Source: Flagellimonas taeanensis
GTDB taxonomy: Bacteria; Bacteroidota; Bacteroidia; Flavobacteriales; Flavobacteriaceae
Length of the DNA: 64,000 nt
Assembly (NCBI RefSeq): GCF_003584105.1
Contig: NZ_QXFO01000027.1
Coordinates: forward strand, 62,001-126,000
Direction: 5' to 3'
Position numbers and translations under genes: made by a program. This document shows positions 34,822 to 52,523 of this stretch, piece after piece (position 1 is the first letter of the stretch; the number at the start of each line of letters is the position of its first letter). A model generated the notes under the pieces. The model did not search any database and was not told where the DNA came from. It saw nothing but the letters and a program-made list of their open reading frames with translations.

Positions 34822-36471
34822 TCACTTCGCAAAGTACACGTAGATGGCGATTACGACCACACAGATGAAGGCACTGGCCAATTTGACGTGTTTCCAAGGC
34901 TCTATCGATACTTGCTTGGTATATTCCAGTTCAAAAGCTTCTTTCCTTGGATATATCTTGCCAATGATGAGCATGATGACAATGTTGGTGATGAACAATA
35001 TGGCCATCACATGAAGGTAATGGGGGTAGGCATCTGCTTCCACCATATGCAGTGCCTCGGGATCGGTAATGCCGTTTGCCTTGGCTTCGGCCAATGCATT
35101 GGCCACCATTCTCGGGCCCACGATGAACTGGCTGATGATGTATAGGATAGAGCCTGAAAGGATACCAATTTTGGCTGCAATGGCAGGGACCCTTTTGGTC
35201 AGATACCCCACTACAATGATGGTAAAGATGGGAATGCTGTAGATTCCATTGATTTCCTGTAAATAATTGAAAAGGCTACCGGCGTTTGCAATGAGCGGCG
35301 CAATGAACATGGCAGCCAGTGCCAAACAGATCCCGAAGATCTTTCCGTATTTTACGATGGTCATTTCGGAAGCCCCCTTATTGATGTGCTGCTTGTAGAT
35401 GTCAATGCCAAAAAGCGTCACCGAACTGTTGAGCACGCTATTGAACGAACTTAGTATGGCTCCAAAGAGCACGGCGGCAAAAAAGCCCATCAAAGGCTTT
35501 GGCAAAACGGCCCTTACCAGTTCGGGATAGGCCAGGTCACTGCTGGACAACCCACCTTCAAAATAATAGTAGGCGATCATTCCGGGCAAAACCAAGATGA
35601 TAGGCCCCAAAATCTTCAAAAAGGCAGCCAATAACAGCCCTTTTTGTCCTTCGGCCAGGCTTTTGGCACCCAATCCCCTTTGAATGATCTGCTGATTGGT
35701 CCCCCAATAAAACAATTGGACCAGCATCATACCCGTAAAAATGGTTGCGAAGGGAACTTCCTGTCCTGGGTTACCTGTAGAATCGAAACGTTCAGGATTC
35801 GCTGCCATTAAGGTGTCCAAGCCGTTCAAAACGCTACCGTCACCAATGGCCATCAACCCAAATACCGGAATGAGCAACCCTCCAATGATAAGCCCTATCG
35901 CATTGATACTGTCAGAAACGGCCACGGCCTTCAACCCTCCAAAAACTGCATAAATGGAACCAACAATACCGATGCCCCAAATACAGAGGAGCAATGCCGT
36001 GGAATCCGAAACACCGAGCAATTGGGGCACATCGAACATCCCGCTAATGGCCACGGACCCCGAATATAGGATCACAGGGAGAAGCACCACTACATAGCCC
36101 GTCAAGAACAGCCCCGAAGTAATGGTTTTGGTAGTGGTATCGAACCTCTTGGCCAAAAATTGTGGCACAGTGGTCAGACCGCCCTTTAAATAACGGGGCA
36201 GCAAGAACATGGCCGTTACCACGATGGCCAATGCGGCCAAGGTCTCCCAGGCCATCACCGACAACCCATCTTTGTAGGCACTGCCGTTGAGGCCTACAAT
36301 TTGCTCGGTAGAAAGGTTGGTCAAGAGCAATGAACCGGCAATGACGCCAGCGGTGAGGCTTCTTCCACCCAAGAAGTAACCGTCAGACGATGTTTCATCC
36401 GTTTTCCGAACGGACCACCAGGAAATGAACGCCACCAAGAGCGTAAATCCTAAAAATGATATAAGTGCCAT
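34822..36471 (-). CDS. Sodium:solute symporter (SSS family)
   Basis: 549 residues, paralogue of the 5160-6764 protein, with the same signatures (GYFLGGRSLTAGVIAGSLLL, TNLSTEQIVGLNGSAY) and about 14 membrane helices. It is divergent from the DUF5690 operon across 403 bases, so it may belong to the phosphonate-type locus; the substrate is not visible in the sequence. Confidence 0.9.
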   Translation of the reverse strand: MALISFLGFTLLVAFISWWSVRKTDETSSDGYFLGGRSLTAGVIAGSLLLTNLSTEQIVGLNGSAYKDGLSVMAWETLAALAIVVTAMFLLPRYLKGGLTTVPQFLAKRFDTTTKTITSGLFLTGYVVVLLPVILYSGSVAISGMFDVPQLLGVSDSTALLLCIWGIGIVGSIYAVFGGLKAVAVSDSINAIGLIIGGLLIPVFGLMAIGDGSVLNGLDTLMAANPERFDSTGNPGQEVPFATIFTGMMLVQLFYWGTNQQIIQRGLGAKSLAEGQKGLLLAAFLKILGPIILVLPGMIAYYYFEGGLSSSDLAYPELVRAVLPKPLMGFFAAVLFGAILSSFNSVLNSSVTLFGIDIYKQHINKGASEMTIVKYGKIFGICLALAAMFIAPLIANAGSLFNYLQEINGIYSIPIFTIIVVGYLTKRVPAIAAKIGILSGSILYIISQFIVGPRMVANALAEAKANGITDPEALHMVEADAYPHYLHVMAILFITNIVIMLIIGKIYPRKEAFELEYTKQVSIEPWKHVKLASAFICVVVIAIYVYFAK

Positions 36472-36874
36472 GTGTTACATTTTGATTCTTTGGCCCAAGG
36501 TGAAAGGCCGAAAGGGTTAGTTTGTTCTGTTAATTAAATTGGTCATTCGTATTTCAAATAACTCCAATGATCGTCCCTCTTTTGAGTGCAATCCGTTTCA
36601 AAATTCAAAAGGGGTATGACGGTCTCTTGCCCTGCTAATATAATCGGAATTTTCCAAAATACGGCTGACCGTCAGCAATCACTTGCGGAATGTTTCCATA
36701 ATGGTATTGGGAAAACCTTCTAGGGCTATGGGTCATTTTTTATGAAAAATGAAAGCAGGAAAGACAAACTGTTTTTGCTAACATTTTTTTAATCTTAAAG
36801 AGAAGATGGGTTTATACTAATTTGAGTTATTTGAAAAATAATTTTATTATTTGTAAACTTTTCGATGTAAAAAT
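36472..36874. other. Intergenic region with a palindrome
   Basis: 403 bases without a gene between the divergent SSS and DUF5690 genes. It contains one short perfect inverted repeat, GCTGAC-C-GTCAGC (36664-36676), a possible operator. I found no exact TANNTTTG box on either strand. Confidence 0.4.
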
Positions 36875-38155
36875 ATGCTCAAGAAACAGTCAAGCTTGGT
36901 CTTTGTGTTGCACGCATCACTTGCTGCTTTTGGAGCTTATTTTTGCATGTACGCCTTCAGAAAGCCTTTTTCGGTCGCCACTTTTGAGGGTATGGCCTTC
37001 ATGGGGATCAATTACAAAATTTTGTTGGTCATCGCCCAGGTTTTGGGATATGCCCTCTCCAAATTTGTGGGGATAAAGATCATATCGGAGCTCAAGTCCA
37101 GCAAAAGACTGCTTTTTTTCATCGCATTGATCCTGTTGGCCGAACTGTCACTGATTTTGTTCGCCCTTGTCCCCGCACCCTATAACCTGGTTTTCATGTT
37201 TCTGAACGGCCTGCCTTTGGGGATGATCTGGGGCATTGTGTTCTCCTATATCGAAGGAAGAAAGTTTACTGATATCTTGGGCGTTGTGCTATGTGCAAGT
37301 TTTATTGTGTCCAGCGGCGTGGTCAAGTCGGTGGGGCTCTATGTGATGGATTTTTGGGGTGTGAGCGAGTTTTGGATGCCCTCCGTCACAGGTGCTTTGT
37401 TCTTTTTGCCCCTCTTGTTGTGCGCTTACCTGTTGCAAAATGTACCACCGCCTACGGCAGAGGACATCGAATCACGAACAGAACGTGTGCCCATGACTGG
37501 GGCGGATAGGAAACGGTTGGTCAAGCAATTCTTCTTTCCCCTGCTATTGGTGGTTGTGTTTTATACCTTCCTTACCGCTTTTAGGGACTTTAGGGACAAT
37601 TTTGCCCGCGAGCTTTGGGACAGTATCGGATACCAAGGGGACATTTCGGTATTTTCCACATCGGAGATCATCATCGCAATAGTCGTGCTCGTGATCATTG
37701 GTTCCATTTTTTACATCAAGGACAATTATAGGGCCTTGCTGACCTATCATTTGCTGCTCCTATTGGGGGCATTGGTGCTTGGCATCTCCACGGTGATGTT
37801 CCAAACGGGGGTCTTGGATTCCTTTCTATGGATGGTCTGTACGGGTTTTGGGCTCTACATCTGTTATGTACCCTTCAACTGTCTCTTCTTTGACCGGTTC
37901 ATCGCCACTTTTAAAATCAAGGGAAACTCAGGTTTTCTGATCTATATTGCCGATGCCTTTGGATATATGGGCAGTGTGCTGGTATTGCTGTATAAAAACT
38001 TCGGACAGGCCAAGCTGTCCTGGCTCAATTTCTTTGTGTATGGCACTTATGCCGTGGCACTTATCGGGATAGTGATCACCATTGTACTGTTCCTTCATTT
38101 TGGGGCAAGACGAAAATCTGAACAGACCAACAAACAATTGGATTATGGACAATAG
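36875..38155 (+). CDS. DUF5690 membrane protein resembling organophosphate antiporters
   Basis: 426 residues, about 12 membrane helices, MFS-like. Read against E. coli GlpT from memory, several key segments coincide: AFGAYFCMYAFRKPFSVATF (Arg29) with the first phosphate-binding Arg segment, GYALSKFVG with the next helix, LPLGMIWG with helix 4, FYTFLTAFRDFRDNF (Arg237/240) with the second substrate Arg, and FGYMGSVL near the end. I infer an organophosphate or phosphonate transporter. It overlaps the FAD oxidoreductase gene by 11 bases. DUF5690 is officially of unknown function. Confidence 0.8.
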   Translation: MLKKQSSLVFVLHASLAAFGAYFCMYAFRKPFSVATFEGMAFMGINYKILLVIAQVLGYALSKFVGIKIISELKSSKRLLFFIALILLAELSLILFALVPAPYNLVFMFLNGLPLGMIWGIVFSYIEGRKFTDILGVVLCASFIVSSGVVKSVGLYVMDFWGVSEFWMPSVTGALFFLPLLLCAYLLQNVPPPTAEDIESRTERVPMTGADRKRLVKQFFFPLLLVVVFYTFLTAFRDFRDNFARELWDSIGYQGDISVFSTSEIIIAIVVLVIIGSIFYIKDNYRALLTYHLLLLLGALVLGISTVMFQTGVLDSFLWMVCTGFGLYICYVPFNCLFFDRFIATFKIKGNSGFLIYIADAFGYMGSVLVLLYKNFGQAKLSWLNFFVYGTYAVALIGIVITIVLFLHFGARRKSEQTNKQLDYGQ

Positions 38156-39317
38156 ATATGATGTTGTGATAGTGGGCGGCGGCATTTTGGGTACTTTTCA
38201 TGCTTATCACGCACTGGAACAGGGGCTTAAGGTCTGTTTGCTGGAAAAAGATGCCTATCCGCAAGGGGCGACCACCCAAAATTTTGGACAGGTGGTACCC
38301 TCCGGGATGAATTCCAAATGGCAAAAATTGGGTAGGGAGAGTCTCCGTATTTATAAGGATATCCAATCCCAGTTTGACATCAGTATTCGCCAAAACGGGA
38401 CGGTCTATCTGGCCTCCAATGAAGAAGAGGAACAGCTTTTGGTAGAGCTCAGGGCCATCAACAACAACAATGACTATGCCTCCCGAATGCTCACCAAAGG
38501 GGAATGTATGGACCGATATCCGGGACTGCGAAAGGAATATGTGAAGGCCGGACTCTTTTTCCCCGATGAGGTTACCGTGGAACCAAGGACCATGATCCAT
38601 AGACTGCAAGAGTATTTGACCACCCAAAAGGGGTTGACCATGAAGACTCATTTCACTGTGGTGTCCTGTGAAAGAAATGGGGATTGGACAACGGTGAGGA
38701 GCACCAGCAATGAAGCCGTGTTGGCCAAAAAAGTGATCATTTGCAATGGAAGTGATTTCAAGAATCTATATCCTGAGGTGTTTGCCCAGAGTGATCTGGA
38801 AGTCTCCAAGCTGCAGATGATGCAGACCAAGCCGCAGAAAGACTATTCCCTAAAAGGTTCTATCTTGACCGGGTGGTCCATCAGAAGGTATGAGGCGTTC
38901 CATGAGTGCCCATCATTTGCCCAGGTCAAACAAAATGAGCCGGCGGACAGCCTTCAAAAAAAGTGGGGTGTGCACATCCTTTTCAAACAGGCGATGGATG
39001 GTTCGGTGATCTTGGGCGATTCGCACCAATATGCCGATGTGGATAAGATGGAAGACCTAGGGTATGACCTGGATATGGACATTGATCATTTTATGCTGGA
39101 AGAGGCCAAAAAAATAATGGAACTGCCCACTTACGAAATTCAAAGAAGATGGTATGGCATGTACTCGCAGTGCAAGACAATCGATATTTTCCAAAAGACC
39201 ATTGACGAGCATATACACATCGTCACCGGAATTGGGGGTAAAGGAATGACGGGAAGTGCAGGTTTTGCCAAAAAGAACATTGCTACAATTTTTAATAAAC
39301 AGAGAATCAACCTATGA
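38145..39317 (+). CDS. TIGR03364-type FAD-dependent amine oxidoreductase (phosphonate-linked)
   Basis: 390 residues from MDNRYDVVIVGGGILGTFHA, a D-amino-acid-oxidase-like FAD fold, ending in the second FAD-contact segment HIVTGIGGKGMTGSAGFAKK. This clade recurs beside phosphonate genes; related enzymes oxidise aminoethylphosphonate or its N-methyl form to phosphonoacetaldehyde. It overlaps the PhnX-like gene by 4 bases (ATGA), which fits direct hand-over of that aldehyde. The exact amine substrate is inferred. Confidence 0.82.
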   Translation: MDNRYDVVIVGGGILGTFHAYHALEQGLKVCLLEKDAYPQGATTQNFGQVVPSGMNSKWQKLGRESLRIYKDIQSQFDISIRQNGTVYLASNEEEEQLLVELRAINNNNDYASRMLTKGECMDRYPGLRKEYVKAGLFFPDEVTVEPRTMIHRLQEYLTTQKGLTMKTHFTVVSCERNGDWTTVRSTSNEAVLAKKVIICNGSDFKNLYPEVFAQSDLEVSKLQMMQTKPQKDYSLKGSILTGWSIRRYEAFHECPSFAQVKQNEPADSLQKKWGVHILFKQAMDGSVILGDSHQYADVDKMEDLGYDLDMDIDHFMLEEAKKIMELPTYEIQRRWYGMYSQCKTIDIFQKTIDEHIHIVTGIGGKGMTGSAGFAKKNIATIFNKQRINL

Positions 39318-39988
39318 AGGAAATAAAACTTGCGGTTTTTGATATGGCCGGCACCACGGTGAACGAGGACAATGTAGTGTACAAAACGGTCAAGAAGGCT
39401 TTGGCCAAATCAGGAGTGGAGGTCACGCTGGACACCGTGTTGGAATTTGGTGCGGGAAAGGAAAAGTTCAAGGCCATTTCCGATATCTTGGAGGAGACGC
39501 AAACCAATGGGGTGGATGCCAAGGCCGTGTTCGAAGATTTTAAAGTGATGCTGAGGGAGGCCTATGAAAACCTTGAAGTGACATCCTACGATGGCGTTGA
39601 GGAACTGTTCGGGGTTTTAAGGGCCCATGGGGTGAAAGTGGTGCTCAATACGGGCTATGACAGGAAAACAGCACAATCCCTTTTGGACAAATTGGGATGG
39701 ATCGTTGGACTTCAGATCGATGGCCTGATCACGGCCGATGATGTGGAGAAGGGAAGGCCTTCTTCGGAAATGATAGACAAGGCCATGGAAATGTTCCGCA
39801 TAACAGATTCGGAACAGGTGCTCAAGGCCGGAGATTCCGTAATCGATATTGAAGAGGGCAAAAATGCCAACTGCGGCATCACCGTGGGAGTGCTCACGGG
39901 AGCGCAGACCCGAGAGCAATTGGAGACCGCAGACCCGACCATGATTCTCGATTCCTTGAGCGAACTGGCCAAGGTTTTGTTCCCTTGA
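39314..39988 (+). CDS. Phosphonatase-like HAD hydrolase (TIGR03351, PhnX-like)
   Basis: 224 residues. The HAD nucleophile motif reads FDMAGTTVNED (Asp10), the DxAGT form of phosphonoacetaldehyde hydrolase. In the cap, EFGAGKEKFKAI places Lys49 where PhnX has the Schiff-base lysine (MGLLK). Motifs II (LNTGYDR) and IV (AGDSVIDIEEG) are intact. It would split phosphonoacetaldehyde into acetaldehyde and phosphate. It is the last gene of its operon; its stop abuts the convergent regulator gene. Confidence 0.85.
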   Translation: MKEIKLAVFDMAGTTVNEDNVVYKTVKKALAKSGVEVTLDTVLEFGAGKEKFKAISDILEETQTNGVDAKAVFEDFKVMLREAYENLEVTSYDGVEELFGVLRAHGVKVVLNTGYDRKTAQSLLDKLGWIVGLQIDGLITADDVEKGRPSSEMIDKAMEMFRITDSEQVLKAGDSVIDIEEGKNANCGITVGVLTGAQTREQLETADPTMILDSLSELAKVLFP

Positions 39989-40555
39989 TCAAATAAAGAA
40001 ATAGACCACTAACATCTTGGAGGCCACTATGCCACGATTTACGGGAACATGGGGGATTCTACCATCAAAGAAAATGGAATCCCCTTCTTGTAGCAGTACC
40101 TCTTGGTCCCCAATCTCGTAATAGCATTCCCCGCTCAGCACATATTTGAACTCGAAGGCGTCCGTGACCACTTTGTCACGCTTGGAGTTGGGCTTTACTT
40201 CAAGAAGTACACTTTCAAACCCTACCGAGTTCAATTGCTTGCCAAAAATGTAACTGTAGCTGAATCCTATCGCCTCGTCCTCCTTTTCAATAAGGGTATG
40301 GTCGTCCTTTCTGGAAACTAGGAAGTTTTGGCCGTTCACCTTGGGCATCCCATCAAAAAAAGCAGTCATTTCGGTCCCGAGCGCACCAACGATCTTCAAG
40401 AACACGGGCAGGGAAGGTATGGTCCTTCCGTTTTCGATGCGGGAAATGAGCCCAGCGGTCACTCCGGCATCGATGGCAACTTCACTGATGGTCTTTTTAT
40501 TGCCCTTTCGGATTTCTTTGATCCGTTTGCCTATACCGATGAGATAGTCTTCCAT
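39989..40555 (-). CDS. XRE-family regulator with cupin sensor domain
   Basis: 188 residues: an N-terminal helix-turn-helix (GKRIKEIRKGNKKTISEVAI, VTAGLISRIENGRTIPS) and a C-terminal cupin (DAFEFKYVLSGECYYEIGDQ, DSIFFDGRIPHVPVN). Such proteins bind a small metabolite or metal in the cupin. It lies between the two operons of the locus, convergent with one and divergent from susC, so it is the obvious local regulator. Confidence 0.88.
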   Translation of the reverse strand: MEDYLIGIGKRIKEIRKGNKKTISEVAIDAGVTAGLISRIENGRTIPSLPVFLKIVGALGTEMTAFFDGMPKVNGQNFLVSRKDDHTLIEKEDEAIGFSYSYIFGKQLNSVGFESVLLEVKPNSKRDKVVTDAFEFKYVLSGECYYEIGDQEVLLQEGDSIFFDGRIPHVPVNRGIVASKMLVVYFFI

Positions 40556-40684
40556 AATATGTCTTTAATTAGGTATGCCCATTTTCAATAACCATAAATA
40601 CTAAAAAAACACGATAAACCCTATGATGGGGCTTGTGAACATTGAAAAGTACTGTTTTTGAAGCAGTTTAAAAAGTGAATATTT

Positions 40685-40699
40685 GTAAATAATGTTTAC
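40685..40699. promoter_or_regulatory. Inverted repeat upstream of susC
   Basis: GTAAA-TAATG-TTTAC lies between the XRE-cupin gene and susC. It is a candidate operator for that regulator; no exact -7 box was found near it. Confidence 0.35.
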
Positions 40700-40825
40700 C
40701 TAACATTCCAAGGATTCTTTTAACCATTCCATATCCTTTTTTTAATCTGTATAGCGGCATGTCTTAACTCTTGTGTTGGATATTTGTTGATAAATAATTA
40801 ACCAATTTTTACAAATATTCAACAA

Positions 40826-43800
40826 ATGAAAAAATCAATCGTAGCGTTTTTACTTGCCTTTACCGTAAGTATCATAGGCTATTCACAAGGCACCTTTTCA
40901 GGAAAGGTGGTGGATGAGAACAACGTGCCACTTCCAGGGGCATCGGTGGTTGTTAAAGGTGGTAGCGTAGGTGTTGCCACGGATTTTGATGGGAACTTCC
41001 AGATTGAACTTTCGCAGGGAGGGGAAATATTGGAGGTATCCTATATAGGATATGTGTCCCAAGATTTTGACACGACGGGAAAGACCACGGCAACCATAAT
41101 GTTGCAGCCCGATTCACAACAATTGGACGAAGTGGTGGTAACGGCCCTGGGCATCCAAAGGGAGACCAAGAAACTTGCCTATGCCGTCCAGAAAGTCTCC
41201 GGGGAGGAAATCTCGGAGGCAAAGGAGACCAATGTGGTGAACTCACTGGCCGGTAAAATGGCAGGGGTGCAGGTCACCGGTGGAAACTCGGGAGTTGGAT
41301 CCACTTCGCAGATCATCATTAGGGGTGAAAACTCATTGAACCCCAGTCCAAATGCCAACTCCCCGCTATTTGTGGTCGATGGTATACCAATCAACAACAA
41401 TGTGAACAATACTGGGAGTGAGGGCAATATGGGTGTTGACTATGGTAATGGTGCCATGGACATCAATCCGGACGATGTGGAGACCATGACGGTACTGAAA
41501 GGTCCCAATGCCACCGCACTTTATGGTTCCAGAGGGGCCAATGGCGTCATCTTGATCACTACCAAATCAGGGAAGGGATCCAAAGGAATCGGGGTTTCAT
41601 ACACTAACAACACCACGTTTGAAGATTTGTTGACCTTGCCGAAGTACCAAAACCGCTACGGACAGGGGTCCAATGGACAATTTGCTTTCAACGATGGGGG
41701 ACAGAACCGCTCCTTAACGGGTGGTATCAACGATCATGTGGACGAGAGCTGGGGCCCTGCCTTGAACGGACAGTTGATCCCTCAACACGATAGCCCCACC
41801 ACAAGTGGTCTGCGTGCAGGGGATGTCCATGTAAGACCAAGGAATTCGGATGGTACTTTCGCCGACGAGATCATAGCCACTCCGTTTTCACCACAGCCAA
41901 GCAATATTGATGATTTCTTCAGGACCGGGTTCACCCTGAGCAACAATATTGCCCTGACCGGGGGCAATGAGGATGGGAATTTTAGGGTGTCCTTTACCGA
42001 CCTTCAGAGCGAGAGCGTGATCCCAAACTCCAATTTTAAAAGAAGGGCCTATCAGGTGAACGGATCGTATAACCTAACGGATTGGTTGAAGGTGACCGGT
42101 TCCATGAACTACATCAATTCCAATTCACGCAACCGTCCGAACAACTCTTACGGTACCGAGAACGTAATGTACCTCTGGATTTGGTTTGGCCGTCACATCA
42201 ACATGAACAATTTAAGGGATTACTGGCAGCCCGGTCTGGAAGGGGTGCAGCAATTCAACTACAACTATAATTATCACGACAACCCGTTCTTCACGGTTTT
42301 CGAAAATACCAACGCCTTCAACAAGGACCGCTTGATCACCAATCTCAGGGCGGATATTCAGTTGGCCAAGGGCCTTAGTTTCATGTTTCGTTCCGGATTC
42401 GATTATTCCAACGAACTGGACAAGCGTAAAAGGGCCTATTCCACCCAGCGTTTCCCGAACGGACAGTATCGGGAGGATTTCATCTATGCCTATGAACAGA
42501 ACACGGATTTCTTATTGGCTTACAATACAGAGATTAATCAAGATTTTGATTTTGGGGTTTCTTTTGGTGGAAACCACCGTTCGGCAAAGAACAGGTACCA
42601 GCGGATCAGTGCCAACTCACTGTCCATCCCCGGCATCTACAATTTTGGAAATGCTGCCGAACCGTTGACACAGAGCGATTATGATGGAAAGTTCACTGTG
42701 AACAGTCTCTATGCCTTTTCGAACGTTTCCTACAAAGACTATGCATTCTTGGATGTGACCGCACGTAACGACTGGTCCTCCACACTGCCCGATGGCAACA
42801 ACAGCTACTTCTACCCATCCGTGGGATTGAGCTTTATCCTTTCCGATATGTTCACCATGCCCCAAGCCATCAGCTTTGCAAAGCTTCGGGGAGGTTGGGC
42901 CAGCGTGGGTAACGATACGGACCCATACAATTTGGCCGCTACCTATGGTTTTGGAAACACGTTTAACGGTTTCTCAAGGGTATATTCACCGTCAGAGTTG
43001 AAGTTGTCCGACCTTAAGCCTGAGCGTACCAACTCCTTTGAGGTAGGTGCCGATGTAAGGTTCTTTGGTAGTCGATTGGGCTTGGACGTAGCAGCCTATA
43101 AATCGGTGACCAACAACCAGATCCTTTCCTTGCCCGTGTCCAATACATCAGGCTACAGCACTAGGGTCATCAATGCTGGGGAAGTGGAGAACAAAGGCTT
43201 GGAGGTTACTTTGACAGCCACCCCGGTCCAAACCGATAGCTTTAGCTGGAACACCAATATCAATTTCACCGCGAACCGCGGAGAGGTCAAGGAACTTACC
43301 GATGGGTTGGATAGCTATTTGGTAAAATCCAACTACCTGCAAGTCGTAGCGGAAGTAGGAGGCCGTATGGGAGATTTGTACGGAACAGGTTTCGAGCAGG
43401 TCACCGATAAAAGCAGCCCTTATTATGGACAATGGATCATTGACCCCAATTCTGGTCTTCCCATTAGAAGCAATGAACTCAGAAACCTTGGAAACTACAA
43501 TCCAGATTTTATGGTCGGTTTCCAGAACAGCTTCAGCTATAAGAACTTCAGGTTTGGATTCTTGTTCGATTGGAGGCAGGGAGGTGTTTACCATTCCAGA
43601 ACGGTTGCCATAGGGGGAACAACAGGGATGTTGGACTTTACGGTTCCCGGACGTGAATCAGGAATCGTTGCCCAAGGTGTGATCGACAATGGGAGCGGGT
43701 CCTATACCCCCAACACTACCAGTGTGAACGCATCCAATTATTACTCCCATGTGTACAATAGGGGCAATGAGCAAAGCTCCATGTTCGATGCCACCTATGT

Positions 43801-44035
43801 AAAACTGAGAGAGGTGAAACTAGGGTATACCTTCCCAAGGAAATTATTGGAGAAGACCCCGTTGAAATCGGCATCCGTTGCATTGGTTGGCCGTAATCTG
43901 GCCTTGTGGACGGAGAACGACCATGTGGATCCCGAGACCATTTCCCTATCCGGAGGCTCCATTGTTCCCGGTGTTGAGGATATGGCCCTGCCGAGCACCA
44001 GAAGCTTCGGTCTGAATCTAAACGTAGAATTTTAA
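40826..44035 (+). CDS. susC: SusC/RagA-type TonB-linked outer-membrane protein
   Basis: 1069 residues: signal peptide MKKSIVAFLLAFTVSIIGYS, a carboxypeptidase-like domain (GKVVDENNVPLPGASVVVKG), a TonB plug with the SusC signature (LYGSRGANGVILITTKSGKG) and a large barrel ending SFGLNLNVEF. It imports a ligand captured by the SusD lipoprotein 19 bases downstream. No glycoside hydrolases adjoin it; phosphoesterases and phosphonate enzymes do, which points to a phosphorus-bearing ligand. Confidence 0.95.
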   Translation: MKKSIVAFLLAFTVSIIGYSQGTFSGKVVDENNVPLPGASVVVKGGSVGVATDFDGNFQIELSQGGEILEVSYIGYVSQDFDTTGKTTATIMLQPDSQQLDEVVVTALGIQRETKKLAYAVQKVSGEEISEAKETNVVNSLAGKMAGVQVTGGNSGVGSTSQIIIRGENSLNPSPNANSPLFVVDGIPINNNVNNTGSEGNMGVDYGNGAMDINPDDVETMTVLKGPNATALYGSRGANGVILITTKSGKGSKGIGVSYTNNTTFEDLLTLPKYQNRYGQGSNGQFAFNDGGQNRSLTGGINDHVDESWGPALNGQLIPQHDSPTTSGLRAGDVHVRPRNSDGTFADEIIATPFSPQPSNIDDFFRTGFTLSNNIALTGGNEDGNFRVSFTDLQSESVIPNSNFKRRAYQVNGSYNLTDWLKVTGSMNYINSNSRNRPNNSYGTENVMYLWIWFGRHINMNNLRDYWQPGLEGVQQFNYNYNYHDNPFFTVFENTNAFNKDRLITNLRADIQLAKGLSFMFRSGFDYSNELDKRKRAYSTQRFPNGQYREDFIYAYEQNTDFLLAYNTEINQDFDFGVSFGGNHRSAKNRYQRISANSLSIPGIYNFGNAAEPLTQSDYDGKFTVNSLYAFSNVSYKDYAFLDVTARNDWSSTLPDGNNSYFYPSVGLSFILSDMFTMPQAISFAKLRGGWASVGNDTDPYNLAATYGFGNTFNGFSRVYSPSELKLSDLKPERTNSFEVGADVRFFGSRLGLDVAAYKSVTNNQILSLPVSNTSGYSTRVINAGEVENKGLEVTLTATPVQTDSFSWNTNINFTANRGEVKELTDGLDSYLVKSNYLQVVAEVGGRMGDLYGTGFEQVTDKSSPYYGQWIIDPNSGLPIRSNELRNLGNYNPDFMVGFQNSFSYKNFRFGFLFDWRQGGVYHSRTVAIGGTTGMLDFTVPGRESGIVAQGVIDNGSGSYTPNTTSVNASNYYSHVYNRGNEQSSMFDATYVKLREVKLGYTFPRKLLEKTPLKSASVALVGRNLALWTENDHVDPETISLSGGSIVPGVEDMALPSTRSFGLNLNVEF

Positions 44036-45503: not shown

Positions 45504-45578
45504 AGATTTGACCATTTAAATAACCGACAAATGGTTGCCCTGGAAACAGGGCAGCCATTGTTGTTAAAATAAAAATTC

Positions 45579-47237
45579 ATGTTGAAGAACGTATTCTTTG
45601 TGACTGCTTTGGTCACGGTGTTTTTATCGGCCTGCTCACGAAATACAGAGAATAGCCCTGATATACAACACATTGTGATCATCGGCGTGGACGGTATGAG
45701 TCCCAATGGGATCCAGAAGGCCCATACGCCTATGATGGACTCCATGGTTCAAAATGGAGCGGCCACTATGCATGCCCGTTCCGTATTGCCGTCAAGTTCC
45801 AGCCCCAATTGGGCCAGTATGATCATGGGGGCCGATACCGAACAGCATGGGGTCACCTCCAACGGATGGGAAAAGTTTGACCATCAATTGCCACCCGTAG
45901 TAGCGACCAAAAATGGAACCTTCCCAACCATTTTCACCTTGTTCCACGACCAACAGCCCGAAGCCCATGTAGGGGCAATCTACGATTGGGATGGCTTTGG
46001 ACGTTTGTTCGAAAAGGAGGACGTCGATTTTGATATTGACGGGGACCACGAGGACAATACCACACAACAGGCCGTAAACTACATCAAGGAACATACTCCC
46101 AAGTTCACCTTTGTGCATTTGGATCATGTAGATCATGCAGGCCATGCCTTGGGCCATGGGAGCCCAGAATATTACAAGTCCGTAGAAAAGGCGGACTCTT
46201 TGATTACCGAAATTGTCAACGCGACCAAGGAAGCGGGCATTTTTGAAAAGACCCTGTTCATTGTTTCTGCCGATCACGGTGGAATCGGTTTTGGGCACGG
46301 GGGTGAAAGTTTGGCCGAAATGGAAATACCCTTTATCCTTTATGGTGCAGGAATCAAAAAAGGATATCAGATTGAAGAGACCGTATACCAATACGACAAT
46401 GCAGCCACGGTGGCCTATGCTATGGGATTGCAAACTCCCCAGTCATGGATCGGGAGGCCCACTAAAGGAGCTTTTATCGGTAATGAAAAACCCAACTTGA
46501 CCTATAAGCGAAAAGAGCAGATAACCCAACCAAAGATTCTTCCGGATGCAGGCTATTTTGAGCCTGCAGGAGGAGTTTTTAAGGCGGATTCCGTTGCGGT
46601 GGTAATGCAGAACCCCAACAATGTGGGTGAAATCAGGTATACCATAGGAAACGCCGTTCCTACGATGGAAAACAGCAAGGTGTATCAAGATACTTTTTAC
46701 CTGAAACAAACCGAGATTGTAAAGGCCGGAATTTTTCAGGGTGACCAATTGTTGAGTACGATTGCAGAGGCCAATTTCAGGTTGGTTCCTGAAACCAAGG
46801 AAGACCCTGTTGCCTATGCTATTTATTACGGGGAGGGGATGGACAAATTACCCAATTTCGCTACCTTAAAGCCTGTTAAAGAAGGTTTTGTTGCCGAATT
46901 TTCCCATAAACAGGCCTTGACGGAAGATGTGCAACAAGAACAGGGGGCCTTGGTGTTGGAAAGCTATTTGGATATTCCTGAAGATGGGAAATATGGCTTT
47001 TTTGCCAATAGTGATGACGGGAGTAAACTCTACGTGGATGGAAAATTGGTGGTGGACAACGATGGGGACCATGGGGTCATGGAACGTGGCGAAGCTATTG
47101 AACTGACCAAAGGCAAACATTTGGTCAGGGTGGAGTTTTTTAACGGCGGGGGAGGCTACCACTTGGATGTAAAATACCAAGGAGTCCACATCCCGAAACA
47201 GATTATCCCTGCCAACCATTTATATAGAGAAAAATAA
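45579..47237 (+). CDS. Secreted alkaline-phosphatase-superfamily phosphodiesterase with PA14 domain
   Basis: 552 residues: lipobox (VFLSACSRN), then a type I phosphodiesterase/nucleotide pyrophosphatase-like catalytic domain. Metal ligands are visible in IIGVDGMSP, HLDHVDHAGHALGHG and VSADHGGIGFGHGG; the nucleophile region is LPSSSSPNWASMIMG with a Ser. Residues from about 455 form a PA14-like domain (DGKYGFFANSDDGSKLYVDG), a carbohydrate-binding fold. It would free a phosphate or phosphonate ester from a glycan at the surface. It is the third gene of the susCD operon. Confidence 0.85.
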   Translation: MLKNVFFVTALVTVFLSACSRNTENSPDIQHIVIIGVDGMSPNGIQKAHTPMMDSMVQNGAATMHARSVLPSSSSPNWASMIMGADTEQHGVTSNGWEKFDHQLPPVVATKNGTFPTIFTLFHDQQPEAHVGAIYDWDGFGRLFEKEDVDFDIDGDHEDNTTQQAVNYIKEHTPKFTFVHLDHVDHAGHALGHGSPEYYKSVEKADSLITEIVNATKEAGIFEKTLFIVSADHGGIGFGHGGESLAEMEIPFILYGAGIKKGYQIEETVYQYDNAATVAYAMGLQTPQSWIGRPTKGAFIGNEKPNLTYKRKEQITQPKILPDAGYFEPAGGVFKADSVAVVMQNPNNVGEIRYTIGNAVPTMENSKVYQDTFYLKQTEIVKAGIFQGDQLLSTIAEANFRLVPETKEDPVAYAIYYGEGMDKLPNFATLKPVKEGFVAEFSHKQALTEDVQQEQGALVLESYLDIPEDGKYGFFANSDDGSKLYVDGKLVVDNDGDHGVMERGEAIELTKGKHLVRVEFFNGGGGYHLDVKYQGVHIPKQIIPANHLYREK

Positions 47238-47238
47238 A

Positions 47239-48513
47239 ATGTATATCAACCTCAAAAAATCAGGTGTTTTGGCCACTCTATTTCTTATGGCCTTGGTGGT
47301 CAAAGGCCAAAAACAGCAATTGCCTGCTTGGGAACCTGGTTTTTTGGACATCCACCATATCAATACCGGTAGGGGTGACGCCGCTTTTATGGTTTTTCCT
47401 GATGGCGCTACGATGCTGGTGGATGCCGGGGACATGTCCGAGACCCATCCGAGGACCACGTCGAGCAGAAATGCCGAATTGGTTCCGAACAGGTCAAAGA
47501 CCGTACCCCAGTGGATCGTGGATTACATCGACCAGTTTCTGCCCAAAAGACAAGAACGAAAATTGGATTATGCCCTTATTACCCATTACCACGACGATCA
47601 TTTTGGAGAAATAGATTCCTTGCGAAAAATAGCTCCAGGGGGGTATCAATTGACCGGTATTATGGAAGTGGGGACCCTTATTCCCATCAAAAAATTGATA
47701 GACCGCGGATTTGAATTCCCCATCAACCTGAAAGATCCCAAAGTACAGGCAGAGGAACGTTTCTCTAGCGATGCCTATGGTATGATACCGACCTTAAAGG
47801 AGTATTGGAAGTTCATCGATTATCAAGCAAAAAAAGTTGGCTTAATCAATGAGCCATTGAGCGTGGGCCGTTCGGATCAAATCGTTCTAAAAAATAATCC
47901 AAAGGATTATCCAACTTTTTCAATACGGAATATTGCCTCCAATGGTAACATTTGGACAGGCTATGATGATTCCTTTTACCCCTTGTTCAGACAGGGAGAA
48001 TATCCAGGGGAGAATCCGTTGAGCAATGGTATCCGAATCGATTACGGCAAGTTCAATTATTATACCGGAGGGGATATTTCCGGCATAGACGGCATGGGTC
48101 AGACCAATTTGGATGCTTTGGAATCCCACGTGGCCCCGGTAATCGGTCCGGTGGATGTGGCCACACTCAACCATCACGGCAACCGCGATTCACAGAATCC
48201 ATTTTATGTTCGGACCATCCGGCCCCGTGTCTGGATCCAACAAAATTGGACTGCCGACCATCCGGGCGAGGAAGTTTTAAGAAGGATCACCTCAACACAA
48301 TTGTACCCTGGGGAACGGGATATTTTTTCAACCATTATGCTCCAAGGCACCAAGGATGTGATCGGGGGCAGGTTGGATCAATATAAAAGCCAAAAGGGGC
48401 ATATTGTGATCCGGGTTTATAATCACGGGAATTCATACGATATTTATGTGTTGAACGATTCATCGGAAGAAAGGGAAATACTAGCGAAATATGGACCATA
48501 TGAAGCACGATAG
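47239..48513 (+). CDS. Secreted metallo-beta-lactamase-fold hydrolase
   Basis: 424 residues with signal peptide MYINLKKSGVLATLFLMALVVKG. Metal ligands: HYHDDH (116-121), Asp279 in YTGGDISG and the His pair in LNHHGNRDS (312-313), the order seen in ComEC-type MBL domains. It could be an extracellular phosphodiesterase acting on phosphocholine-, phosphoethanolamine- or AEP-like esters; pneumococcal phosphorylcholine esterase also has this fold. It starts directly after the previous stop and overlaps the PLP gene. Confidence 0.8.
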   Translation: MYINLKKSGVLATLFLMALVVKGQKQQLPAWEPGFLDIHHINTGRGDAAFMVFPDGATMLVDAGDMSETHPRTTSSRNAELVPNRSKTVPQWIVDYIDQFLPKRQERKLDYALITHYHDDHFGEIDSLRKIAPGGYQLTGIMEVGTLIPIKKLIDRGFEFPINLKDPKVQAEERFSSDAYGMIPTLKEYWKFIDYQAKKVGLINEPLSVGRSDQIVLKNNPKDYPTFSIRNIASNGNIWTGYDDSFYPLFRQGEYPGENPLSNGIRIDYGKFNYYTGGDISGIDGMGQTNLDALESHVAPVIGPVDVATLNHHGNRDSQNPFYVRTIRPRVWIQQNWTADHPGEEVLRRITSTQLYPGERDIFSTIMLQGTKDVIGGRLDQYKSQKGHIVIRVYNHGNSYDIYVLNDSSEEREILAKYGPYEAR

Positions 48514-49861
48514 GCACAACGCGGAATCTGTTGTGGAAGGCGACATCAACCTTACCTCTGCCAGGGGTGAATGGTTAAAGGAAGAAGTAAACGACCAAAC
48601 CAAGGAACTGTTGGAAAAGGATGCCAAATACTTTTTGCACCAATCCATGTCCACCCCCTGTTTGGACGTTTTAAAAAATTGCGAAGGCTCTTATTTGGAG
48701 AGTATCTCTGGGAAACGATATCTGGATTTTCATGGGAACAATGTGCACCAAGTAGGGTTTTCCCATCCCAAAATGGTGAGTGCGCTTATGGGACAACTTC
48801 AGGAACTTACGTTTTCAACCCGAAGATACACCAACGAAAAAGCCATCCAGTTTGCGGAGGAATTGACATCCTATACCCCAAAAGGGCTAAATCGAATTTT
48901 ACTTACCCCAAACGGAAGTTCTGCCATCAGCATAGCCTTGAAACTGGCCCGTGCGGTAACGGGCAAGCATAAAGTAGTTTCCTTTTGGGATTCGTTCCAT
49001 GGGGCCAATTTGGATGCCATCAGCGTAGGCGGTGAATCTATCTTTCAAGAACATATGGGGCCATTGATGCCCGGTGTGGAACGTATTCCACCACCTATAA
49101 CCTATCGCGGTATTTTTGAAGGGAATGAAGAAAAAGCCCTGGAGTATTTGGAGCATGTGTTGTCCAAGGATGATGAGATCGGTGCTTTTTTGGCCGAAAC
49201 CATCCGCAACACCGATGTGCAGATTCCATCCGCCAAATATTGGCAAGGCGCCCGTGAACTATGTGATAAGTATGGGGTGCTGTTGATTTTGGATGAAATT
49301 CCGATTGCCTTCGGACGCACCGGAAAAATGTTCGCCTACGAATTGTTCGGTATTGAACCCGATATCCTCTGTTTGGGCAAAGGCTTGGGTGGAGGTATTG
49401 TTCCCCAAGCGGCCATTGTGACCCGTGAAGAGTACAACCGTTTCGGGCATATTTCTTTGGGACACTATACCCACGAAAAAAGTCCAATGGGCTCAGTGGC
49501 CGGATTGACCCTTTTGGAAATCATTGAAGAAGAAAAATTGTTGCAAAAGGTAAAGGCAGATGAGGAATTCATGAAAAAGGCCCTTTACAAAATGCACCGA
49601 AAATATTCCCTGATTGGCGATGTGCGTGGGGTGGGTCTGTTGTGGGGTATCGAATTGGTCACCAACCGGACCACCAAGGAAAAAGCGACCGCCGAAGCCG
49701 AGGAAATCATGTACGAATGTTTAAAAAATGGGTTGAGTTTCAAGGTTTCCAAAGGAAACGTGCTGCAACTCTCACCTCCCTTGACCATTTCTCGGGAAGA
49801 ACTGGAAAAAGCCTTGGAGATATTGAACGACGCCTTTCTAAAAACAAATGCCATAGCCTAA
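48491..49861 (+). CDS. pbfA: PLP class-III enzyme, PbfA-like (hydroxy-aminoethylphosphonate ammonia-lyase)
   Basis: 456 residues, class-III aminotransferase fold with PLP Lys297 (LCLGKGLGGGIVP), Asp268 and the phosphate-binding NGSSA. The N-terminal FLHQSMSTPCLDVL and FHGNNVHQVGFSHP, and WDSFHGANLDAISVGGE, match my memory of PbfA, which releases ammonia from (R)-1-hydroxy-2-aminoethylphosphonate and yields phosphonoacetaldehyde in Vibrio. It lacks a signal peptide, so it is cytoplasmic among exported neighbours. It overlaps the MBL gene by 23 bases and the next gene by one. A related phospholyase or transaminase activity is possible. Confidence 0.72.
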   Translation: MDHMKHDRHNAESVVEGDINLTSARGEWLKEEVNDQTKELLEKDAKYFLHQSMSTPCLDVLKNCEGSYLESISGKRYLDFHGNNVHQVGFSHPKMVSALMGQLQELTFSTRRYTNEKAIQFAEELTSYTPKGLNRILLTPNGSSAISIALKLARAVTGKHKVVSFWDSFHGANLDAISVGGESIFQEHMGPLMPGVERIPPPITYRGIFEGNEEKALEYLEHVLSKDDEIGAFLAETIRNTDVQIPSAKYWQGARELCDKYGVLLILDEIPIAFGRTGKMFAYELFGIEPDILCLGKGLGGGIVPQAAIVTREEYNRFGHISLGHYTHEKSPMGSVAGLTLLEIIEEEKLLQKVKADEEFMKKALYKMHRKYSLIGDVRGVGLLWGIELVTNRTTKEKATAEAEEIMYECLKNGLSFKVSKGNVLQLSPPLTISREELEKALEILNDAFLKTNAIA

Positions 49862-51456
49862 TGAAAAAAATCAACCAACTACTTATCTTTTTGTTTTTGG
49901 GCATTGCCCCGATGATGGCCCAGTCGGAGCCACAGATCTTGGTGCAACCCTATCTGCAGAACGCCGAACCCAATTCGATCATCATCATGTGGGAGACCAC
50001 CAATGGCGAGGAAAGCATCGTTGAATATGGAACCACTCCAAAACTGGGCAAAAAGACCCAAGGTAGGGCCGAAGACATCAACTTTTCGGATTCTAGGGTG
50101 CATACCGTGAAGTTGACAGGTTTGGAACGCTTTACTGAATACTTTTATCGGGTAAAGACAGGAAAGGCCAAGTCGGACATCTATCAATTTAAAACGCCGC
50201 CCTTTGCCAGTGATGAGGAATCGTTCAACATCGTTGCCATGAGCGATATGCAATACGATAGCCAAAATCCGAACAAATTTTCCGAAGTGGTGAACGAGGG
50301 CATCATTCAGTATTTGAAAAAGGAATACGGAGGCAAATTGCCCGATAATCTGGCCATGATCATGATTCCGGGCGACTTGGTTTCAAGTGGGAGCGAATAC
50401 TACCAGTGGAAGGAACATTTCTTCGACCCTGCACAAAAATTGTTTGCTGAAGTGCCAGTATATCCTGTTTTGGGAAACCATGAGCGAAACTCCATTTTTT
50501 ACTTCAAATATTTCAGCCTGCCCGAAAATGGCACCCCTGCCTTTGCGGAACATTGGTGGTACAAAGATTATGGAAATACCCGTGTGATCGGACTCAACTC
50601 CAACGAAGGGTACCGAGATTTGAAAGATCAATACCAGTGGTTGGAAAAGGTTTTGGCAGATACGGAAAAGGATGATAATATCGACTTTGTTTTTGCCCAA
50701 CTCCACCATCCTTATAAATCGGAGCTTTGGATTCCAGGAGAGGAAGAACCCACAGGAAAAGTGGTAAAAATGTTGGAGGAGTTTTCAACCAAAACGGGTA
50801 AACCCAGTATTCACTTTTTCGGTCATACCCATGCCTATTCCAGGGGACAGTCCAGAGATCACAAGCATTTGTGGATCAATGTGGCCTCCGCCGGTGGTGC
50901 CATCGACAATTGGGGGGAGTTTGAAGGCAGGGATTACGATGAGTTCACCGTTTCCCAAGACGAATATGGTTTTGTGATGGTGGAAGTGGACGGTAACCGA
51001 AAAGACCCCAAGTTCACTATAAAAAGGATCAGTCGTGGCAACGAAAGCAAGCTTAGGGACAATGAACTTCGCGATAGTATTACCATTTGGAGATTGGAAA
51101 AGAAACCCGAAACCCCCAAAACAGTTTCGCCTGCAAACAATGTGGAAGTTGAAGATGAATTTGCCACGTTGAAGGCTGGGGAATTTTCAAGCCCGATCAA
51201 TGGAGCTTTCCATGCTGCCGCGCATTGGCAGGTTTCTGAAACCAAGGATTTTGAAAAATTGGCACTGGACAGTTGGAAACAATACGAAAACTGGTACTAT
51301 GAGGAAGACCGTCAAAAAGATGACGACCTTACCGACGAAAGAACCAAAAGATTGAAACCTGGAACCACTTATTATTGGAGGGTCCGTTACCGCGACCAAA
51401 ACCTCAATTGGAGCGATTGGTCCGAAACAGCATCATTCAAAACCAAACAGAAATGA
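49861..51456 (+). CDS. Secreted purple-acid-phosphatase-like metallophosphoesterase
   Basis: 531 residues with signal peptide MKKINQLLIFLFLGIAPMMA. An N-terminal FnIII-like domain (IIIMWETTNGEESIVEYGT) is followed by the calcineurin-like catalytic core: MSDMQYD, IPGDLVSSG, LGNHERN, LHHPYKS and FGHTHAYSR. The C-terminus is again FnIII-like (YYWRVRYRDQNLNWSDWSE). The ATG overlaps the previous stop (TAATG). Confidence 0.9.
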   Translation: MKKINQLLIFLFLGIAPMMAQSEPQILVQPYLQNAEPNSIIIMWETTNGEESIVEYGTTPKLGKKTQGRAEDINFSDSRVHTVKLTGLERFTEYFYRVKTGKAKSDIYQFKTPPFASDEESFNIVAMSDMQYDSQNPNKFSEVVNEGIIQYLKKEYGGKLPDNLAMIMIPGDLVSSGSEYYQWKEHFFDPAQKLFAEVPVYPVLGNHERNSIFYFKYFSLPENGTPAFAEHWWYKDYGNTRVIGLNSNEGYRDLKDQYQWLEKVLADTEKDDNIDFVFAQLHHPYKSELWIPGEEEPTGKVVKMLEEFSTKTGKPSIHFFGHTHAYSRGQSRDHKHLWINVASAGGAIDNWGEFEGRDYDEFTVSQDEYGFVMVEVDGNRKDPKFTIKRISRGNESKLRDNELRDSITIWRLEKKPETPKTVSPANNVEVEDEFATLKAGEFSSPINGAFHAAAHWQVSETKDFEKLALDSWKQYENWYYEEDRQKDDDLTDERTKRLKPGTTYYWRVRYRDQNLNWSDWSETASFKTKQK

Positions 51457-52523
51457 AAAAAAAGATATTGCTTTTCGTTGCCCTGGCAGCTTTTCTAAAG
51501 ATCAATGCACAGGAATCCGACACCAAGGTCATTTTGATTACGTTGGACGGCTACCGTTGGCAGGAACTCTTCACGGGTGCCGATCCGTTATTGATCGGCA
51601 ACAAGGAGTACGTTCATGAAGTAGACGCGCTAAAGGAGGCTTTTTGGAAAGAAACTCCCCAAGAAAGAAGAGAGGTCCTGATGCCTTTTTTCTGGACCCA
51701 AGTGTCCAAAATGGGCCAGTTGCATGGCAACAGGAACTTGGGCAGCAAAGTGGACCTGACCAACAAGATGTGGTTTTCCTATCCGGGCTACAACGAAATC
51801 CTGACCGGGGCTGCCGATGACAAGAACATCCGCAGCAATGATAAGGTGCCCAATCCCAATACCACCATTTTGGAACGGTACAACAACATGTCCGAAGGGA
51901 AAGGCAAAGTAGCTGCTTTTGGCAGTTGGGATGTGTTCCCGTTCATCATCAACGAAAAACGTTCCGGTGTTCCCGTGAATGCCGGTTTTGAAACGGCTAC
52001 AGGCAACTTGAACGAAAGGGAAAAATTCCTGAACCAACTTCAGGTTCAAATTCCAAGTCCTTGGGGCAGCGTTCGTTTGGATGCCTTCACCCATCACTAT
52101 GCCTTGGAGCACATGAAAAAAGCGCATCCGAAGCTGGTATTTGTCTCTTATGGGGAAACGGATGACTTCGCCCACGATGGCGATTATCAAGCGTATCTGA
52201 AATCGGCCCACAACACAGATGCTTTGATCAAAGAGCTTTGGGACTTTACCCAACAGGATGATTTTTATAAGGATCAAACGGTTTTTATCATCACCACAGA
52301 CCACGGCAGGGGCACTGAACCTTTGGATACTTGGAGAAGCCATGGAGCGGACATCAAGGGAGCTGACCAAGTTTGGATGGTCACTTTTGGAAAGGGGATT
52401 AAAGCCTTGGGCGAGGTAAAACAAGAAGAACAATTGCATTCCGATCAGATTGCACCCACGCTATTGAACATATTGGACGTTCCTGTACCCAAAGAAATGG
52501 GAGGATTGCCCCTAAAGCTTTAG
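51453..52523 (+). CDS. Secreted alkaline-phosphatase-superfamily hydrolase
   Basis: 356 residues with signal peptide MKKKILLFVALAAFLKINAQ. The fold is sulfatase/phosphodiesterase-like: first metal Asp in ILITLDGYRWQELF, Ser nucleophile in WFSYPGYNEILTG, further ligands in YGETDDFAHDG, TTDHGRGTEP and HSDQIAPTLL. It overlaps the preceding gene by 4 bases and ends the operon. Phosphomonoesters or diesters are likely substrates; a sulfatase is less likely because no Cys/Ser-x-Pro-x-Arg motif is present. Confidence 0.82.
   Translation: MKKKILLFVALAAFLKINAQESDTKVILITLDGYRWQELFTGADPLLIGNKEYVHEVDALKEAFWKETPQERREVLMPFFWTQVSKMGQLHGNRNLGSKVDLTNKMWFSYPGYNEILTGAADDKNIRSNDKVPNPNTTILERYNNMSEGKGKVAAFGSWDVFPFIINEKRSGVPVNAGFETATGNLNEREKFLNQLQVQIPSPWGSVRLDAFTHHYALEHMKKAHPKLVFVSYGETDDFAHDGDYQAYLKSAHNTDALIKELWDFTQQDDFYKDQTVFIITTDHGRGTEPLDTWRSHGADIKGADQVWMVTFGKGIKALGEVKQEEQLHSDQIAPTLLNILDVPVPKEMGGLPLKL

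Follow-up and report, generated by a model that had tools for sequence, protein, structure and literature searches.

A SusCD gene cluster of Flagellimonas taeanensis that joins exported hydrolases to predicted enzymes of aminophosphonate degradation

Described systems and the composition of the locus

Bacteroidota are major consumers of marine particles, and natural phosphonates become incorporated into lipids and glycans, while the acquisition of phosphonate phosphorus by these bacteria is little known. In Flavobacterium, SusCD loci lying beside phosphonate-degrading enzymes have been reported, with SusCD induced by phosphate starvation, and PusCD loci were found to hold phosphomonoesterases (PMEs) and phosphodiesterases (PDEs) and to be induced by depletion of inorganic phosphate (Lidbury et al., 2020, PMC8115612). 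Here we describe two adjacent operons of the Flagellimonas/Allomuricauda group, located at positions 36875-52523 of a 64,000-nucleotide stretch of the Flagellimonas taeanensis genome (contig NZ_QXFO01000027.1, positions 62,001 to 126,000, forward strand; hereafter the window), in which a SusCD pair and exported hydrolases are combined with predicted phosphonate enzymes. We consider it probable, though well short of certain, that they form a self-contained locus for the use of esterified aminophosphonates as a source of phosphorus (and nitrogen).

Like the PusCD loci, the window locus has exported phosphatases and phosphodiesterases, not carbohydrate-active enzymes (CAZymes), next to SusCD. It differs from them in carrying PbfA within the sus operon, in a linked operon encoding a PbfD-type oxidase, a PhnX-like hydrolase and DUF5690, in an operator-like motif shared by both operons, and in its occurrence in many genera. 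The terms phnX, phosphono, aminoethyl and 2AEP are absent from the main text of the Flavobacterium report, figure 6 and the supplements being left aside. Because SusCD loci of this kind were already reported there, a first-pass annotation of the same DNA, which knew of no described Sus-type phosphonate locus, overstated the novelty, and the window locus looks like a specialised variant of the phosphate-starvation SusCD loci. Its statement holds for the PbfA-SusCD arrangement, for which, as for DUF5690 and the regulator, no description was found in the open-access literature, a search that left subscription papers and preprints uncovered.

The hydrolytic PhnW-PhnX(-PbfA) pathway for aminoethylphosphonate (AEP) (PMC8154272) shares with the locus a PbfA-family enzyme, phosphonoacetaldehyde as the expected hub and a hydrolase of the haloacid dehalogenase (HAD) type for the carbon-phosphorus (C-P) bond. 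In contrast to that pathway, PhnW did not exceed its cut-off in any of 71 congeneric genomes (best 163 bits against 400.8, in genome G061), a TIGR03351 protein replaces the canonical PhnX, and the cluster has SusCD and exported esterases and no ABC transporter. The association of PbfA with PhnX outside Proteobacteria has been noted previously (PMC12366243). PhnW-free clusters of an oxidase dependent on flavin adenine dinucleotide (FAD) and a PhnX-type hydrolase are also known, for example the PbfD-PhnX cluster of Mariniblastus fucicola (PMC10590968); the main text of that paper contains neither 'SusC' nor 'Bacteroid'.

All named genes of the locus are open frames in the window. For the FAD enzyme, the purple acid phosphatase and the last enzyme, starts near 38145, 49861 and 51453 were preferred, by reading, to the mechanical open-frame starts. 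The features are:

36848..36857, plus strand: TATTTGTAAA motif, candidate operator before the DUF5690 operon, one of 3 exact copies in 64 kb
36875..38155, plus strand: DUF5690 (PF18943), inner-membrane carrier of the major facilitator superfamily (MFS) fold, candidate aminophosphonate transporter (560 bits, cut-off 25)
38145..39317, plus strand: TIGR03364 FAD-dependent oxidoreductase of PbfD type, predicted to convert (N-methyl-)AEP to phosphonoacetaldehyde (426.8 bits, cut-off 285.1)
39314..39988, plus strand: PhnX-like HAD hydrolase (TIGR03351), predicted phosphonoacetaldehyde C-P hydrolase (233.8 bits, cut-off 218.9)
39989..40555, minus strand: XRE-type helix-turn-helix (HTH) and cupin protein, candidate regulator of both operons (HTH_3/HTH_19, Cupin_2)
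40680..40689, plus strand: TATTTGTAAA motif, exact copy, distal site in the HTH-SusC intergenic region
40808..40817, minus strand: TATTTGTAAA motif, exact copy, proximal inverted site directly before SusC
40826..44035, plus strand: SusC-type TonB-dependent transporter (plug, beta-barrel and CarbopepD_reg_2 domains)
44055..45503, plus strand: SusD-like_2 lipoprotein (344 bits)
45579..47237, plus strand: phosphodiesterase of the nucleotide pyrophosphatase/phosphodiesterase (NPP) type with Fn3_assoc and PA14, predicted lipoprotein (Phosphodiest 3.5e-28, PA14 3.5e-13)
47239..48513, plus strand: exported metallo-beta-lactamase-fold esterase, remote relative of Pce/CbpE (1wra, E=3.8e-8; 1.9e-7 with a profile)
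48491..49861, plus strand: PbfA-family enzyme dependent on pyridoxal phosphate (PLP) (NF049939, 718.2 bits, cut-off 525)
49861..51456, plus strand: exported metallophosphoesterase of purple-acid-phosphatase type (Pur_ac_phosph_N 1.9e-21, Metallophos 4.3e-14)
51453..52523, plus strand: exported alkaline-phosphatase (AP) superfamily enzyme, like independent phosphoglycerate mutase (iPGM)/metalloenzyme (Metalloenzyme 4.4e-11; AlphaFold2 (AF2) model, mean confidence pLDDT 83)

The two operons stand head to tail around the regulator gene. The first runs from DUF5690 through the FAD oxidase to the PhnX-like hydrolase; in the second (40826-52523, from SusC to the AP-superfamily enzyme), intergenic gaps do not exceed 75 bases, several genes overlap, and PbfA is flanked by genes for exported hydrolases. 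The family scores confirm the composition read in the first pass, namely a SusCD operon with a PbfA-like enzyme and four exported hydrolases of three folds (an NPP/Phosphodiest and a second AP-superfamily enzyme, a metallo-beta-lactamase and a purple acid phosphatase), next to an operon with a carrier, a phosphonate-linked FAD oxidoreductase and a PhnX-like hydrolase. The absence of glycoside hydrolases was borne out as well: Pfam scans of the 11 cluster proteins gave no match to a glycoside-hydrolase or other CAZyme catalytic domain, the accessory domains being PA14, Fn3_assoc and CHB_HEX_C_1 in the NPP-type protein and Ig_Rha78A_N in the purple acid phosphatase. The locus thus has the SusCD pair of a polysaccharide utilisation locus and lacks the CAZyme of which such a locus holds at least one; a CAZyme-free SusCD pair linked to exported PME/PDE enzymes is the PUS/PusCD arrangement. 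The first-pass annotation had let the locus begin at 34822, with a sodium:solute symporter gene (34822-36471). This gene belongs to the flank, because it is kept without the cluster, beside Crp-SulP and with two other genes, in three of 12 fetched PbfA-lacking genomes, and the locus is better drawn from 36875 to 52523.

Co-occurrence of the two operons and a shared promoter motif

The first-pass annotation had staked its reading beforehand on the two operons occurring together elsewhere, and they do so at both genus and family level. PbfA (above its cut-off), DUF5690 and the PhnX-like hydrolase were found in an identical set of 42 of the 71 congeneric genomes, the hydrolase lying above its cut-off in 38 and just below it (216-218 bits) in four. 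PbfD was present in 41 of these 42 genomes and absent from G054. PbfA and DUF5690 are 10.2-11.9 kb apart in the 40 genomes where both lie on one contig. As the identity of the genome sets and the close spacing are beyond chance, the two operons belong together.

Within a sample of 397 Flavobacteriaceae genomes, 29 carry the PhnX-like hydrolase. Around 28 of these genes (the window's excluded) we recorded homologues within about 10 kb, some being cut off at the ends of the stretches: DUF5690 was found in all 28 loci, the HTH-cupin protein in 27, PbfD in 27 (one at 24% identity), NPP in 23 (three at 32-33%), SusD in 21, SusC in 20 (four at 24-26% only), PbfA in 18 plus two at about 40%, the metallo-beta-lactamase in 15, the purple acid phosphatase in seven and the last AP enzyme in five. 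SusD, NPP and true PbfA were jointly present in 17 of the 28. Eight of these loci seem to repeat genomes from our neighbourhood set, which comprised the best 80 of 586 relatives; the 20 others are fresh. A divergent version occurs in 16 Dyadobacter loci, all with PhnX-like, PbfD, PbfA and DUF5690 and 15 with NPP, where the window SusC and SusD proteins find a match in two. At class level, DUF5690 was present in 56 and PbfA in five of 395 genomes and, because PbfA is so much rarer, DUF5690 is not tied to it. Of 40 fetched DUF5690 loci, 25 had a match to PhnX-like, PbfD or both, in some cases at no more than 24-30% identity; the other 15 showed neither, and no common neighbour family emerged among 54 neighbours scanned.

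Two single loci may be recorded here. One congeneric genome (G015, contig C39, locus L154) holds a second pair of PhnX-like hydrolase and DUF5690 with another HTH-cupin gene. Kriegella aquimaris, the one member of the Bacteroidetes named in PMC8316502 as a carrier of the AEP transporter AepP, carries a PbfA-NPP-SusCD locus (L063).

The motif TATTTGTAAA occurs in three exact copies in the window against 0.33 expected, a number reached in one of 100 shuffles, and all three lie in the two promoter regions. The consensus WATTTGTAAA was present in all 50 HTH-SusC intergenic regions (forward in 49, inverted in 45, both in 44). It also precedes DUF5690 in 20 of 31 loci, including 17 of 18 within the genus (window included); some genomes are counted twice among these 50 and 31 regions and among the 56 SusCD loci considered below. 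Over 100 loci, the exact motif was found 113 times in 25.5 kb of promoter regions and 34 times in the remaining 2.0 Mb. In the 28 family loci, where 8.6 copies were expected, 70 occur; for 53 of these, HTH-cupin, SusC, DUF5690 or PbfD follows downstream at a distance of at most 450 bases. Since the motif was first spotted by eye in promoter regions and then tested, the 20 fresh family loci provide the cleanest test: 17 have at least one copy, and 34 of their 47 copies lie no more than 450 bases upstream of a locus gene. Across the genome the motif has limited specificity: when one mismatch at most is allowed, a 14-base version gives 13 hits in 4.09 Mb against seven for a control; three of the 13, including the only exact one, are at the locus.

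The shared motif points to a single regulon comprising both operons. The HTH-cupin protein, whose target and signal are both predictions, probably switches the two operons through the TATTTGTAAA sites, although the motif could be part of the promoter instead of an operator.

Predicted degradation route, carrier and exported hydrolases

The cytoplasmic branch of PbfA, PbfD-type oxidase and PhnX-like hydrolase is the well-supported part of the phosphonate reading put forward in the first pass, being predicted from family scores, conserved residues and gene context; capture of a phosphonate-bearing lipid or glycan at the surface stays conjectural. PbfA of the window is 97-98% identical to its best named relatives, from the Flagellimonas/Allomuricauda group, exceeds the NCBIfam equivalog cut-off, and is linked in the locus to the PhnX-like and PbfD genes. 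In two gammaproteobacteria, Photobacterium and Endozoicomonas, a 59%-identical relative is flanked by PhnW and PhnX. Among the diagnostic columns, two fixed ones join the locus and gammaproteobacterial enzymes against the orphans, and one joins the orphans and the gammaproteobacterial enzymes against the locus. PbfA is the family of the ammonia-lyase for (R)-1-hydroxy-AEP (R-HAEP) (PMC8154272). Oxidation of N-methyl-AEP and AEP to phosphonoacetaldehyde has been shown for PbfD enzymes, including one with the TIGR03364 annotation, and most pbfD2 genes belong to PhnW-free clusters (PMC10590968).

Conservation was assessed on 30 of 57 PhnX-like, 30 of 39 DUF5690, 24 of 57 NPP, 16 of 29 metallo-beta-lactamase and 23 of 39 last-AP sequences, the window included. 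In the PhnX-like hydrolase, the DxAGT motif, with Ala at the position of the second Asp of HAD phosphatases, and Lys51 are invariant in 30/30, and the nearest solved structures are phosphonoacetaldehyde hydrolases (E 1.9e-15). The roles of the motif and of the lysine are presumably those of the PhnX chemistry; we take Lys51 as the Schiff-base lysine from a by-eye, ungapped reading through the Dyadobacter sequences. Phosphoenolpyruvate (PEP) mutase, like PhnW, was above its cut-off in none of the 71 genomes (best 65 bits against 319.55); these genus searches covered the two families, with C-P lyase, PhnA and PhnY outside them. In the simplest pathway, cytoplasmic PbfA would convert R-HAEP, and the PbfD-type oxidase N-methyl-AEP and AEP without need of PhnW, to phosphonoacetaldehyde, which the PhnX-like enzyme would split at the C-P bond into phosphate and acetaldehyde. 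By analogy with the published PbfD enzymes, the FAD step suggests oxygen use.

Entry of small aminophosphonates across the inner membrane is assigned to DUF5690, for which we propose an inward direction. Its AF2 model (pLDDT 89) is an MFS carrier, and two programs (Foldseek and VIA) gave the glucose-6-phosphate:phosphate antiporter SLC37A4/G6PT as the top structural match (Z 33.3). In a local hhalign alignment that covers almost all of E. coli GlpT (E=3.8e-4 at a probability of 36, against E 0.31 for the reversed control), the invariant R29-K30 of the RK motif in helix 1 falls on R45-K46 of GlpT. DUF5690 differs from these antiporters in being a separate Pfam family; it matches no NCBIfam model, and a profile search of PDB sequences gave no relative. 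Because other MFS carriers match the model nearly as well (Z 31-32.0), the organophosphate-antiporter-like call of the first pass stands for the fold and not for the substrate, and DUF5690 is a candidate aminophosphonate carrier whose modelled fold is nearest to G6PT.

At the outer membrane, SusCD would bind a phosphonate-bearing molecule and draw it inward, and the NPP/PA14 phosphodiesterase, probably anchored at the surface, together with the exported Pce-like, purple-acid-phosphatase and AP esterases would cut ester links to yield small aminophosphonates. This scheme is least secure as to which molecule is captured and what each of the four hydrolases does. All four proteins begin with apparent export signals, predicted by eye, and the NPP-type protein carries a lipobox-like LSAC. 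Invariance of the catalytic site was established for three of them. In the NPP-type enzyme, D38, S74, D182, H186, D232, H233 and H240 are conserved in 24/24, and its relatives are NPP/ENPP phosphodiesterases and, weakly, phosphonate monoester hydrolase. The metallo-beta-lactamase protein keeps HxHxDH in 16/16. Its only clear solved relative is the pneumococcal phosphorylcholine esterase (Pce; 1wra), likewise an esterase of this fold, in a remote similarity of two stretches, residues 37-132 being significant and 274-335 weak. Pce strips phosphocholine from a surface glycan and offers a fitting model, by analogy, for the stripping of an aminophosphonate decoration. The last AP enzyme has an invariant SYPGYNE site (23/23) and a clear AP-superfamily fold with no single close relative. 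The AP-type enzymes were also considered as sulfatases, which carry the motif C/S-x-P-x-R; this identity was rejected, as the nucleophile regions SSSPNW and FSYPGYNE are unlike it.

Alternative explanations and exchange of the locus

A number of observations weigh against the use of esterified aminophosphonates. The NPP, metallo-beta-lactamase, purple-acid-phosphatase and AP folds act mostly on phosphate esters. The exported enzymes could act on ordinary phosphodiesters too, and the metallo-beta-lactamase, the purple acid phosphatase and the last AP enzyme are present in some loci and absent from others. In locus L199 of G061, a protein 72% identical to the last AP enzyme lies beside a uronate/sugar operon (UxuA, UxaC, GFO/IDH/MocA), and another lies in L194 of G033 among genes of the same lengths as in L199, both genomes being without PbfA; because of the uronate/sugar neighbourhood, the last AP-type enzyme is not tied to phosphonates. 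The window PhnX-like protein reaches only 103.7 bits against the 220 of canonical PhnX (TIGR01422), a pairwise alignment to solved PhnX sets the non-invariant Lys49 at the catalytic lysine, and no published assay of TIGR03351 was found in the open-access literature. Outside the genus, WATTTGTAAA precedes DUF5690 in only three of 13 loci, and the four other PbfA genomes of the class sample have DUF5690 unlinked. A TAAC/TTTAAT element with an 11-base period before DUF5690 (window 36779-36795, shared in part with the SusC region), which we take to resemble a PhoB site, was dropped as a PHO box, with three hits in the genome against five for a control pattern. Taken with the optional exported enzymes and with the nearest solved relatives of three of them, all acting on phosphate esters (Pce on phosphocholine, NPP/ENPP, purple acid phosphatase), the phosphate-induced PusCD loci of Flavobacterium with their PMEs and PDEs favour a general organic-phosphorus system of the PUS type, in which SusCD and the hydrolases take common phosphodiesters, for instance nucleotides and the head groups of lipids or teichoic acids, and free aminophosphonates are handled in a side branch by the phosphonate enzymes. 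We judge this rather unlikely, given the position of PbfA inside the sus operon between exported hydrolases, the joint presence of SusD, NPP and PbfA in the family loci, and the conserved motif that ties SusC to the phosphonate operon.

The PLP enzyme might also be another ammonia-lyase or a transaminase, leaving the locus with AEP and N-methyl-AEP only, or with some unknown aminophosphonate. The family name alone is no proof, because ten Chitinophagaceae-type loci have a PbfA-family enzyme above the cut-off and no homologue of any other window locus gene nearby, the neighbours in the four scanned being DnaJ, redoxin, DUF2279, arginine deiminase and others instead of phosphonate genes. Moreover, the gammaproteobacterial PbfA enzymes cluster with those of Chitinophagaceae and Dyadobacter (100/100, tree of 29 rows), apart from Flavobacteriaceae. 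The score of 718 bits and the 59%-identical enzyme between PhnW and PhnX nevertheless make this improbable. The ten relatives are about 60-63% identical (L084, L086, L087, L088, L091, L092, L098, L101, L104 and L108).

Import of a carbohydrate such as laminarin oligosaccharides, with incidental neighbours, is suggested by Maribacter forsetii, in which a SusCD pair (P177_RS04595/04600; proteins WP_245233002.1 and WP_036152296.1) was the most strongly raised on laminarin, a difference for which absent control values were taken as 0. The same pair was also expressed on glucose, and its neighbours are an alkaline phosphatase, an FAD oxidoreductase and a phosphonatase-like hydrolase; no CAZyme lies beside it in the same direction (PMC11345257). 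Four named Maribacter species in our set carry the window-type locus, and the laminarin-raised pair may be one; if so, either the phosphonate reading is weakened or the pair is filed under the wrong substrate. With no CAZyme catalytic domain in the locus and the linkage to phosphonate genes conserved over many genera, sugar import is very improbable; that many related bacteria share the cluster as one unit is in keeping with phosphorus rather than sugar as the gain. Recycling of the cell's own phosphonolipid could appeal to the HAEP reported in phospholipids of Bdellovibrio (cited in PMC8154272); with PEP-mutase above its cut-off in none of the congeneric genomes, we give it hardly any credence.

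If the locus does serve esterified aminophosphonates, the range of SusCD uptake includes C-P compounds, aminophosphonate transport by DUF5690 can be put to the test, and many flavobacterial genera possess a pathway that dispenses with PhnW. Some SusCD pairs filed as sugar importers would then need re-examination, for example, should it belong to a locus of this type, the most-induced pair of Maribacter forsetii. In its broadest form the idea is tentative, and we would sooner doubt than assert it: Bacteroidota at large would hold 'selfish' aminophosphonate loci, where SusCD takes up phosphonate-decorated glycans or lipids, exported NPP- and Pce-like enzymes hydrolyse phosphonate esters, DUF5690 represents a novel aminophosphonate carrier of the organophosphate-antiporter type, a PhnW-free PbfA/PbfD/PhnX-like set frees phosphate under a pathway-specific HTH-cupin regulator, and exchange of a SusCD cassette changes the ligand or escapes phage.

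Exchange of the SusCD pair is indicated by comparison of the loci. The SusC proteins of the 56 loci fall into 22 of type A (window-like), 26 of type B, four of type C and four of type D, type B sharing about 50% (SusC) and 37% (SusD) identity with the window. Between L037 and L077, eight other compared genes are 83-97% identical, against 50% for SusC and 36% for SusD; conversely, six Leeuwenhoekiella/Zobellia loci have SusC and SusD 75-78% identical to the window and NPP only 47-59%. To judge from these identities, SusC and SusD are replaced together, as one cassette, and the promoter motif remains in place. All 33 plasmid records of SusD were below 60% identity.

The position of the whole locus varies as well. 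Of the 12 PbfA-lacking genomes fetched around SulP, G018, G070 and G037 have the same flanks (LytS-LytR-symporter-two genes-Crp-SulP) without the locus, G064 fits this order as far as its contig reaches, and in the remaining eight Crp has different neighbours. In G005 and G001 the block is present at another place in the genome. This is evidence of a block that comes and goes, by relocation or transfer. In G005 the last AP gene stays at the Crp site (L200, L162) while the locus lies elsewhere.

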